A stretch of DNA of 23,437 nucleotides from a virus: the IMG/VR virus record IMGVR_UViG_3300033571_007556, positions 1 to 23,437 of that record; one strand, 5' to 3'. Shown one piece after another: positions 5,403-9,623 of this stretch (the stretch's first letter is position 1; each line of letters begins with the position of its first letter). The position numbers and the translations under genes are program-made. The notes beneath the pieces are model-generated. The model did no database searches, was not told the DNA's origin, and was given only the letters and a program-made list of their open reading frames with translations.

Positions 5403-5474
5403 CTGGCGTGGTAGGAATCGAACCTACAGTCCTACGATTAACAGTCGTTTGCATTACCGTTATGCTACACGCCA
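5403..5474 (-). tRNA. tRNA-Asn(GUU)
   Basis: Acceptor TGGCGTG with CACGCCA (7 bp), D-stem GCAT/ATGC, anticodon loop CTGTTAA, T-arm GTAGG-TTCGATT-CCTAC. The outermost anticodon-stem pair is A-A. No encoded CCA. Confidence 0.93.
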
Positions 5475-5735: not shown

Positions 5736-5807
5736 ACCTTAGGTCGGGAATCGAACCCAAACTCCAACTGCATTGTCTGCGTGTCCTGGCCACTAGACTA
5801 CCCAAGG
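5736..5807 (-). pseudogene. degenerate tRNA-like gene (anticodon arm lost)
   Basis: Acceptor CCTTGGG/CCTAAGG (7 bp), D-arm with GTCT/GGAC as in tRNA-Glu or -Asp, and T-arm TTGGG-TTCGATT-CCCGA are intact. The 17 nt in the anticodon position (CGCAG-ACAATGC-AGTTG) pair only at the two outer positions and lack U33, so no anticodon can be read. Either a decayed tRNA, a recombined one, or a tRNA-like processing signal. Confidence 0.6.
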
Positions 5808-6798: not shown

Positions 6799-6872
6799 TC
6801 GGGATGATAGGATTTGAACCTACGGCCCCTCGCTCCCAAAGCGAGTGCTCTACCAAACTGAGCTACATCCCG
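6799..6872 (-). tRNA. tRNA-Pro(UGG)
   Basis: Acceptor CGGGATG/CATCCCG, D-stem GCTC/GAGC, anticodon stem CTCGC/GCGAG with loop TTTGGGA, T-arm GTAGG-TTCAAAT-CCTAT. Reads CCA. No encoded CCA tail. Confidence 0.95.
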
Positions 6873-7081
6873 TGGTGAATGGTGGGAATCTGTCATACCC
6901 ACAACCTGGAAGGTTACACTGACAACCGTATTTCCAAGTACCTAGATTCTTCTTGGTTGGAAGTTCTATACCTTTGATTTCTCAACGATACAGCGAGCAC
7001 CACCTCTAATCTATTGCGTTATCCCGTGAGTAACCACAAGGATTGTTCTGCCACATTCTTTAGGAACCCGTCGATTCCTAA
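6873..7081 (-). ncRNA. structured spacer between tRNA-Ile and tRNA-Pro
   Basis: 209 bp without a gene. Inverted repeats include TAGGAA/TTCCTA (7061-7080), 1 nt after tRNA-Ile; TGGAA-GGTT / AACC-TTCCA (6907-6936); and GTGGG/CCCAC (6882-6902). The repeated presence of folded spacers only in the tRNA region suggests processed or stable RNAs. Confidence 0.35.
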
Positions 7082-7160: not shown

Positions 7161-7418
7161 TTAACGAACTTCGTAATCTAGTCTTCTTATTCGTCTTTTT
7201 GGAGTGTTCAATTGTTCCATCATTTTTGATTGCTTTTGTTTTGGTTTAGTAAATCCTGTTACCATTTCTACTTGGCTCATGTCTTGAGCTATTATAACAG
7301 GTAATCCGTTGTTGTCAAGCCTTATGTAAGTTTCGTTGGGACATTTACAAGATTGTCCCCTGTTTGGAGTTGCTACTTCAAGATTGGAATTGCAACATTT
7401 GCATCTGATTTTGTACAT
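7161..7418 (-). CDS. small zinc-ribbon-like protein (85 aa)
   Basis: Starts MYKIRCKCCNSNLEV: a CxCC knuckle at residues 6-9 and CKC near 24-26 give a small zinc ribbon, then ETYIRLDNN and a Lys/Arg-rich C-terminus (KPKQKQSK, TPKRRIRRLDYEVR). This type of short protein is common in T4-like phages and has no known function. It ends 9 nt before tRNA-Ile and contains a promoter-like sequence. Confidence 0.75.
   Translation of the reverse strand: MYKIRCKCCNSNLEVATPNRGQSCKCPNETYIRLDNNGLPVIIAQDMSQVEMVTGFTKPKQKQSKMMEQLNTPKRRIRRLDYEVR
7291..7318 (-). promoter_or_regulatory. internal early promoter before tRNA-Ile
   Basis: TTGACA (7313-7318), 16-bp spacer, TATAAT (7291-7296) inside the zinc-ribbon gene. 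Both hexamers are perfect; it could drive tRNA-Ile and the following tRNAs. Confidence 0.5.
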
Positions 7419-8316: not shown

Positions 8317-8679
8317 TTAAACTCGTGAGTAACAGATACTAGCCACTCCCTGTCCAGGGGAAGCAATAGTAGAGAATGCCCCGTAGGACAGGTCGAGGTC
8401 TCGTCCTCCGACATATGGACCCCTATCATTCACTCGCACGATAACTGACTTTCCATTTCGTTGATTTGTGACACGTAACCTAGTTCCGAATGGAAGCCAT
8501 CTATGTGCAACGGATTTACCATATGCATTATATCTTTCACCGTTAGCGGTGGTTTGGCCGTGATATCCATCACCTACACCATAATGTGAAGCCAGGGAAC
8601 ATCCGCTGGCAGCTTCAGCTTTTTGGGGCGTAAATCCAATAAGGGTTGAAGCAATAAGAAGGGTTGAAATAAAACGCAT
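8317..8679 (-). CDS. secreted RlpA-like double-psi beta-barrel protein (120 aa)
   Basis: Residues 1-23 form a signal peptide (ending QKAEA). The mature part is one RlpA/DPBB domain: ASHYG...G (30-41), TANGERYN, H59 in AHRWLPFGT, then VRVNDRGPYVGGRDLDLS with D85. RlpA proteins are lytic transglycosylases or glycan-binding barrels acting on peptidoglycan; His and Asp of these motifs are the catalytic pair in active members. Cys27 and Cys116 could form a disulfide. It lacks the SPOR domain of bacterial RlpA. A role in lysis or wall remodelling is inferred. It lies downstream of the Asn-like tRNA. Confidence 0.88.
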   Translation of the reverse strand: MRFISTLLIASTLIGFTPQKAEAASGCSLASHYGVGDGYHGQTTANGERYNAYGKSVAHRWLPFGTRLRVTNQRNGKSVIVRVNDRGPYVGGRDLDLSYGAFSTIASPGQGVASICYSRV

Positions 8680-8721
8680 TTAAATTAATAGAACTCTACA
8701 TCCCAATAGAAGGGGGGTACA

Positions 8722-8737
8722 CTCACCTCTCGGTGAG
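8722..8737. repeat. inverted repeat in the leader of the RlpA-like gene
   Basis: CTCACC, 4-nt loop, GGTGAG, perfect 6-bp stem about 43 nt upstream of the ATG; no T-run. Possibly a leader hairpin. Confidence 0.4.
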
Positions 8738-8785
8738 CACCTTCCTGGGCACAAAATGATAACACTCAATCGCTTATGATATAAG

Positions 8786-8798
8786 TTGGTGTTACCAA
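8786..8798 (-). promoter_or_regulatory. hairpin abutting the Asn-like tRNA 3' end
   Basis: TTGGT, loop AAC, ACCAA on the minus strand with no gap to the tRNA. Short stem, no T-run; fits the tRNA trailer pattern. Confidence 0.4.
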
Positions 8799-8869
8799 TA
8801 GGTGAAGAAGGAATCGAACCTTCGCAATTCAGTTAATCGCTGACCGCTCTGCCACTGAGCTATTCACCA
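8799..8869 (-). tRNA. tRNA-Asn-like gene with abnormal anticodon loop
   Basis: The body is a normal tRNA: acceptor GGTGAA/TTCACC (with a T1-T72 mismatch outside), D-stem GCTC/GAGC, T-arm GAAGG-TTCGATT-CCTTC. The anticodon arm GTCAG-CGATTAA-CTGAA aligns with tRNA-Asn, but the loop has G instead of the invariant U33 and A34 instead of G, giving a formal AUU anticodon. A strong promoter predicts transcription starting at the tRNA 5' end. Decayed, or used for something other than standard decoding. Confidence 0.75.
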
Positions 8870-8875
8870 GATACT

Positions 8876-8904
8876 ATAGTACCATGTCAGTATTGGATTG
8901 TCAA
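8876..8904 (-). promoter_or_regulatory. early promoter of the Asn-like tRNA
   Basis: TTGACA (8899-8904), 17-bp spacer, TACTAT (8876-8881). The expected start (about 8868-8870) coincides with the tRNA 5' end at 8869. A late box TATAAATA (8916-8923) lies just upstream. Confidence 0.8.
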
Positions 8905-8915
8905 GTTACTTGGGA

Positions 8916-8923
8916 TATTTATA
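8916..8923 (-). promoter_or_regulatory. late box TATAAATA upstream of tRNA and RlpA-like gene
   Basis: Perfect T4 late box just after the peptidase gene stop. Late transcripts from here would include the Asn-like tRNA and the RlpA-like gene. Confidence 0.6.
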
Positions 8924-8930
8924 AAACTTA

Positions 8931-9623
8931 TCAGGGTTGGAAAACCCTACCCCATCCGTCATTACGATTAGGACACCACCTACGCATTAAATCTTGCTTC
9001 GTGTATACAGCATGTTTGCCATTAGTTACTGGTCCTGTATAATTATCATTTAGTGAGCCGTAAGGGTCATTCACAACATAATTGCCATTAGGTAACTTAC
9101 CAATTACTACAACCATGTGGCCACCAGTAGGAGAAGATAAAGTCCCCCTATGGAGAATGCCAATAACAACTGGTCTGCCTGCAGCAAGCTCACGGTCAAG
9201 GCCATCAAAAGTAAGATTATAGCTAAAGTGTGACTTAATACCATAAGACTCCAACACACGGGTTTGAACCATATGGTCAGTTGTATCACCAATTGAGAAA
9301 ACTTTCTGAACGTAAGCATCATCTCCTTTTGGTCCTTTTAACGTGCCAGGTTTAAAATACTCAAGACACATAGCACAACTAGAACTGTTACAAGTACGGT
9401 TAGCATCTCTGTAATTATCGGTTTGTGGGAAGAATGGAACTTCTAAAATATTCGATTTTGGTTTTTCTGGATTAGTTCTAAAAATTCTAACCCAGTTAGA
9501 TGTATCGTCTACTTCTTCTGGTGCTTTCTTTTCAAGAGTTTTTTCAAATTCTTCTACCGCAGCAACATGCTTTGGATTGGTTTCATCATAATGTTTAAAA
9601 AAGTTATGTAAGTCGATTTTCAT
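8931..9623 (-). CDS. C39-like cysteine peptidase / amidase (230 aa)
   Basis: Papain-fold cysteine hydrolase of the C39-like type. EVPFFPQTDN with Q67 supplies the oxyanion-hole Gln, RTCNSSSCAM has the probable nucleophile Cys78, GGHMVVVIG has the catalytic His169, and YVVNDPYG has the Asp/Asn partner (N185/D186). The first 55 residues are a charged helical extension without a signal peptide. In phages such domains occur in peptidoglycan-cleaving and virion-associated proteins, and this may be one; a protease role is also possible. Its ATG overlaps the nuclease stop (ATGA), so both are co-translated from the early promoter at 10013. Confidence 0.82.
   Translation of the reverse strand: MKIDLHNFFKHYDETNPKHVAAVEEFEKTLEKKAPEEVDDTSNWVRIFRTNPEKPKSNILEVPFFPQTDNYRDANRTCNSSSCAMCLEYFKPGTLKGPKGDDAYVQKVFSIGDTTDHMVQTRVLESYGIKSHFSYNLTFDGLDRELAAGRPVVIGILHRGTLSSPTGGHMVVVIGKLPNGNYVVNDPYGSLNDNYTGPVTNGKHAVYTKQDLMRRWCPNRNDGWGRVFQP

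Follow-up and report, generated by a model that had tools for sequence, protein, structure and literature searches.

Phage tRNAs with mutated anticodon loops have been argued to remain active decoders (van den Berg et al. 2023, PMC10264068). The tRNA described here (hereafter the odd tRNA) resembles them in its changed anticodon loop and in a possible insensitivity to anticodon nucleases, but it differs in that U33, the discriminator and the 1-72 pair are lost as well. T4-like phages are also known to contain tRNA pseudogenes and to have early promoters ahead of tRNA genes (PMC1524935). Like those pseudogenes, the odd tRNA is a degraded copy beside intact tRNAs in a T4-type myovirus; unlike them, it retains a good fold and a promoter, and it heads the conserved leader of an RlpA-like (rare lipoprotein A) gene. 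A further parallel is offered by tRNA-like elements of mRNAs that are cut by RNase P, such as t-elements and punctuation tRNAs (PMC4919922). In these elements, as in the position ahead of RlpA, which we call the slot, tRNA identity varies while the place in the mRNA is fixed; cleavage is established for the elements, whereas the slot is known from sequence. Leaderless tRNAs occur in Nanoarchaeum equitans, and the odd tRNA likewise has a promoter placed for a possible start at residue 1. It departs from that case in that the start is a predicted one, would fall inside the tRNA in a relative, and is accompanied by a late box that would add a leader.

We refer to the whole 23.4-kb stretch of DNA that was analysed, which is an entire IMG/VR virus record, as the window. 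It is a fragment of a T4-like cyanophage (cyanomyovirus) with a psbA fragment, ferredoxin, ribonucleotide reductase, manA and wcaG RNAs and nine tRNA calls (Table 1). The manA RNA (6872-7081, minus strand) lies exactly between tRNA-Ile and tRNA-Pro and touches both, and in the isolate S-CREM1 manA is flush with one tRNA-Leu and one tRNA-Asn. A perfect TTGACA-16-TATAAT is found within a gene at 7291-7318 (minus strand), about 140 nt before tRNA-Ile.

We tentatively propose, as the first choice among readings none of which is probable in its own right, that the odd tRNA is a decoding-dead derivative of tRNA-Asn, kept as a tRNA-shaped processing or 5'-end element of the RlpA transcript, with a loop that would be free to drift.

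Table 1. Positions of the odd tRNA and of the features discussed with it
Feature	Position	Strand	Remarks
tRNA gene (odd tRNA)	8799..8869	-	Body most likely Asn-derived; loop CGATTAA, G33, anticodon AUU; ARAGORN, Rfam
Sigma-70-like promoter	8876..8904	-	TTGACA-17-TACTAT, TG before -10; -35 at 8904-8899, -10 at 8881-8876
T4-type late box	8916..8923	-	Exact TATAAATA; 46 nt upstream of odd tRNA
C39-peptidase/endolysin-like gene	8931..9623	-	Upstream of tRNA slot
Structured leader between tRNA and RlpA	8680..8798	-	Conserved; covariation, 20 sequences
RlpA-like gene	8317..8679	-	Downstream partner of tRNA slot
tRNA-Asn(GUU), normal	5403..5474	-	Loop CTGTTAA, G73; same genome as odd tRNA
tRNA-like RNA, "tRNA-His(atg)"	5736..5807	-	ARAGORN calls His(atg) or Leu(caa) across genomes

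Lesions of the odd tRNA and its orthologue

ARAGORN calls the gene tRNA-Asn(att), and its cloverleaf scores 50.5 bits against the RF00005 cut-off of 29. This is the lowest score among the window tRNAs above the cut-off (64.6-71.1 bits for the seven others reported by Rfam). A sequence-only reading of this DNA had described an Asn-like tRNA with G33 and AUU that differs from a normal Asn loop at two bases, which agrees with the loop we find (C32 G33 A34 U35 U36 A37 A38, compared with CUGUUAA). One of the two changes replaces U33, the U-turn uridine, a position that is T33 in 303 of 315 tRNAs of RlpA loci. That reading had not listed the U1·U72 mismatch, which leaves six acceptor pairs instead of seven, the G27·A43 mismatch, the discriminator A73 in place of G73, or the absence of an encoded CCA. 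Among 1,884 distinct tRNAs compared, the closest bodies, apart from that of the orthologue described below, are those of cyanophage tRNA-Asn(GTT), and on this basis the odd tRNA is most likely descended from a cyanophage tRNA-Asn.

The bacterial requirement for tRNA-Asn is the anticodon GUU together with G73, in place of which the odd tRNA has AUU and A73. Because G33, A34, A73 and the open 1-72 pair occur together, we read the odd tRNA as non-decoding, and the lesions at positions 33, 34, 73 and 1-72 suggest that charging has probably been lost along with decoding. Support for the non-decoding role that had been suggested earlier is therefore stronger than was argued at the time. We consider it unlikely that the odd tRNA is a working AAU-reading tRNA whose loop was altered to escape a host nuclease that cleaves tRNA-Asn, the kind of adaptation proposed for mycobacteriophage tRNAs. 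The cleavage site of colicin-E5-type nucleases is G34-U35, and a change of G34 to A would remove it. Such a tRNA would read the commoner Asn codon of the window (226 AAU vs 90 AAC), and changes of the anticodon loop at nuclease sites are documented in phage tRNAs (PMC10264068), but G33 removes the U-turn uridine, and A73 and the U1·U72 mismatch remove Asn identity, which in bacteria requires both the anticodon and G73 (PMC9976931).

A different metagenome supplied a contig (L010, also L562 in our RlpA survey), about 82% identical to the window and syntenic with it, that carries a tRNA in the same place with the same loop and 68 of 71 identical positions; of the three substitutions, two replace an A-U pair by a G-U pair. 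This comparison in relatives, proposed in the sequence-only reading, rules out a sequencing error as the source of the odd loop. BLAST in phages and two pattern scans returned L010 as the only orthologue; L628, which contains an exact 20-mer match, was rejected because the match lies outside any tRNA. Local divergence downstream is low (fourfold sites: RlpA 16%, following gene 0%; leader: ~4%), and three differences in 71 positions are therefore weak proof of constraint; L010 shows that the odd tRNA persists and points weakly to strong constraint. An alternative hairpin, GCGAUU-AACUG-AAUUGC, was considered and set aside, as its energy is the more favourable one in the window (-21.5 vs -19.2 kcal/mol) but not in L010.

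Promoter, late box and the tRNA slot ahead of RlpA

The promoter and the late box named in the sequence-only reading are both present; the heavy transcription supposed there is conjecture drawn from the promoter. As the -10 element ends 6 nt ahead of the odd tRNA, a standard start would lie at or adjoining residue 1. When every position of the window was taken as a pseudo-start, a comparable promoter 3-12 nt upstream was found at 0.28-0.51% of positions, and only two of the nine window tRNAs, the odd tRNA and tRNA-Arg, have a promoter this strong ahead of them. The window's five copies of TATAAATA all lie on the minus strand. Four of them precede a gene start by 34-71 nt, and the fifth, at this locus, is retained in five relatives (L010, L546, L552, L554 and L558). 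A start governed by the late box would give the odd tRNA a leader of roughly 40 nt. In L010 the promoter is TTGACA-17-TATTAT, with hexamer positions kept and a diverged spacer, and it ends 4 nt before the tRNA, which would put the start inside it; in relatives with a normal slot tRNA and a promoter the distance is 9-11 nt. Given these differing distances, the promoter does not appear to be spaced for a start at residue 1. The proposed leaderless start is geometrically possible in the window, but would not extend to L010 or to transcripts from the late box.

To place the odd tRNA among its relatives, we surveyed 80 viral loci that encode a close homologue of RlpA. In 28 of them, L562 included, a tRNA lies 118-122 nt before RlpA (146 nt in one). 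Its identity is Tyr(gta), Val(tac), Ile(gat), Arg(gcg) or Ala(tgc), with Asn(att) in L562 only; the isolate S-CREM1 has tRNA-Val. In other RlpA loci the slot has no tRNA, and a TTGACA promoter, often with a terminator-like hairpin, is followed by the same leader; S-PM2, for example, lacks a slot tRNA yet has TTGACA-17-TATAAT. Since relatives with another tRNA or none keep the promoter before the RlpA leader, we assign it to the RlpA unit and not to the odd tRNA itself, and since relatives without a slot tRNA exist, that tRNA is dispensable, a point against our preferred reading. The slot does hold a tRNA-shaped element of varying identity in a fixed place, as expected of an RNase P punctuation element. 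Cyanophage tRNA-Thr with A34 (AGT) was seen in the large tRNA clusters of L585, L599, L610, L612 and L622.

The leader contains a stem (8796-8790 with 8764-8758) and a hairpin (8749-8746/8744-8740 with 8713-8709/8705-8702). Across 20 sequences 97.8% of cells are paired and 40 double changes occur, and the covariation score is reached by none of 500 shuffles; comparison of the leader with Rfam gave no match. This conserved, covarying RNA is found in cyanophage loci L545-L600 and L643 in addition to the window. Several relatives have a U-tract between both arms of the first stem, and in several the sequence directly before the slot tRNA repeats the 3' arm of that stem, an organization that could possibly be an attenuator.

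A reading nearly as likely as the tRNA-shaped 5' element, at perhaps one chance in three, is that the odd tRNA is a tRNA-Asn pseudogene in early decay, in which a slot Asn tRNA made redundant by Asn(GUU) took on function-free mutations at decoding and identity sites. The lowest score above the cut-off, with its several lesions, the redundant Asn(GUU) in the same window, the fast turnover of slot tRNA content and the precedent of tRNA pseudogenes in T4-like phages (PMC1524935) all fit such decay, whereas three features tell against it: L010 keeps the promoter hexamers despite its changed spacer, pairing of the D and T stems is intact in both genomes, and both share the same lesions with none added.

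The CGATTAA loop in other viruses and a parallel slot

An exact pattern scan of IMG/VR found the CGATTAA loop on 19 tRNAs, 16 of them distinct and with very different bodies. That half of the 16 are the sole tRNA of their locus might suggest a loop-specific, non-decoding RNA (a nuclease decoy, or a protein-binding or antisense loop) in which G33-AUU itself is selected, and cellular genomes gave one such tRNA among the matches listed (L434, 6403-6480, plus strand, on a Desulfobacterales MAG contig and carrying CCA). Control loops are about as frequent, however (distinct tRNAs: CGGTTAA, at least 10; CTATTAA, at least 25), and a mixed V33 scan gave similar, single-digit counts for most A/G33 loops among the matches listed, so that CGATTAA is not clearly enriched over other odd viral loops. 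No neighbour gene common to different CGATTAA-carrying phages was found. G73 is present in none of the 16 CGATTAA tRNAs, compared with 15 of 35 CTATTAA or CGGTTAA tRNAs among the matches listed, which fits tRNAs without further need for Asn charging and also speaks against a nuclease-resistant decoder.

In a phage family unrelated to the window phage, a CGATTAA tRNA lies directly behind the same gene in L013 and L067, with compensatory acceptor changes. The loop is kept there although two compared proteins are 56% and 78% identical, which again could favour selection on the loop itself. Among ten loci with that gene, however, CGATTAA occurs in L645, L646 and L651, while in L647-L650 this tRNA has a 6-nt TATTAA loop instead, L652 has tRNA-Gln in the slot, and L653 and L654 retain an acceptor/T-arm minihelix only. 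In L647-L654 the slot lies behind a 149-aa gene; a search with the neighbouring protein of L067 returned no isolate relatives. Bacterial RNase P tolerates extensive truncation of tRNAs, and the acceptor/T-arm part kept in this family is the part that it recognises (PMC4919922). The case for a processing or positional role of the odd tRNA leans chiefly on this slot, by analogy.

With control loops about as common and a loop that drifts in one family with several orthologues, we rejected CGATTAA as a specially selected loop and regard a loop-specific RNA as very improbable. We found nothing in support of the anticodon-nuclease decoy of the sequence-only reading; a remnant, or an element that serves RNA processing, is a likelier identity for the odd tRNA than a special decoy.

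Proposed roles of tRNA-shaped RNAs in cyanophages

Under our preferred reading of a tRNA-shaped 5' element, a cyanophage tRNA-Asn would have given rise to a derivative unable to act as an Asn decoder, which came to occupy the 5'-terminal slot of the RlpA unit, whose tRNA is exchanged among phages of this group. The sigma-70-like promoter would give transcripts that begin at residue 1 or directly beside it, and the late box would give longer ones; both kinds would pass through the odd tRNA into the structured leader and then the RlpA gene. RNase P is present in cyanobacterial hosts. The tRNA fold may serve as a processing or 5'-end element, with RNase P acting on leadered transcripts, and processing of the 3' end of the odd tRNA may free the RlpA leader; the anticodon loop would then be free to drift. 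A start at or inside residue 1 counts against processing, as early transcripts would then carry no 5' extension for RNase P to remove, and for the odd tRNA itself the proposed role draws on a single orthologue.

The window RNA called tRNA-His(atg) has acceptor, D and T arms, but in place of the anticodon arm stands a 4-bp stem that carries a bulged A and is capped by a pentaloop, GACAA or GATAA. Each of the four stem pairs varies in both partners, and pairing holds in 100% of cells across 14 distinct sequences. This RNA is unannotated in six isolate cyanophages (S-PM2, S-CREM1, S-RIM32, S-RIM8, S-SZBM1 and DSL-LC03) and was also found in L010, L571, L580, L620, L623, L642 (S-CREM1), L655 (S-PM2) and L656-L659. 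An evasion strategy involving queuosine-tRNA, common to this RNA and the odd tRNA, was discarded, as the former has no real anticodon. It is arguably the more interesting of the two.

More speculatively, phages may keep a class of non-decoding tRNA-shaped RNAs as processing or binding elements in mRNAs and tRNA clusters, an idea we hold as doubtful. If the class is real, its members would include the G33-AUU tRNA, the GACAA-pentaloop RNA and the L647-L650 and L653-L654 versions. Calls of tRNA-Asn(ATT) in phage annotation should not be taken as codon supply. It has long been asked why phages carry tRNAs, and a slot in which tRNA identity is freely swapped while the leader and RlpA remain in place offers a testbed for distinguishing tRNAs kept for their shape or position from those kept for their codon.
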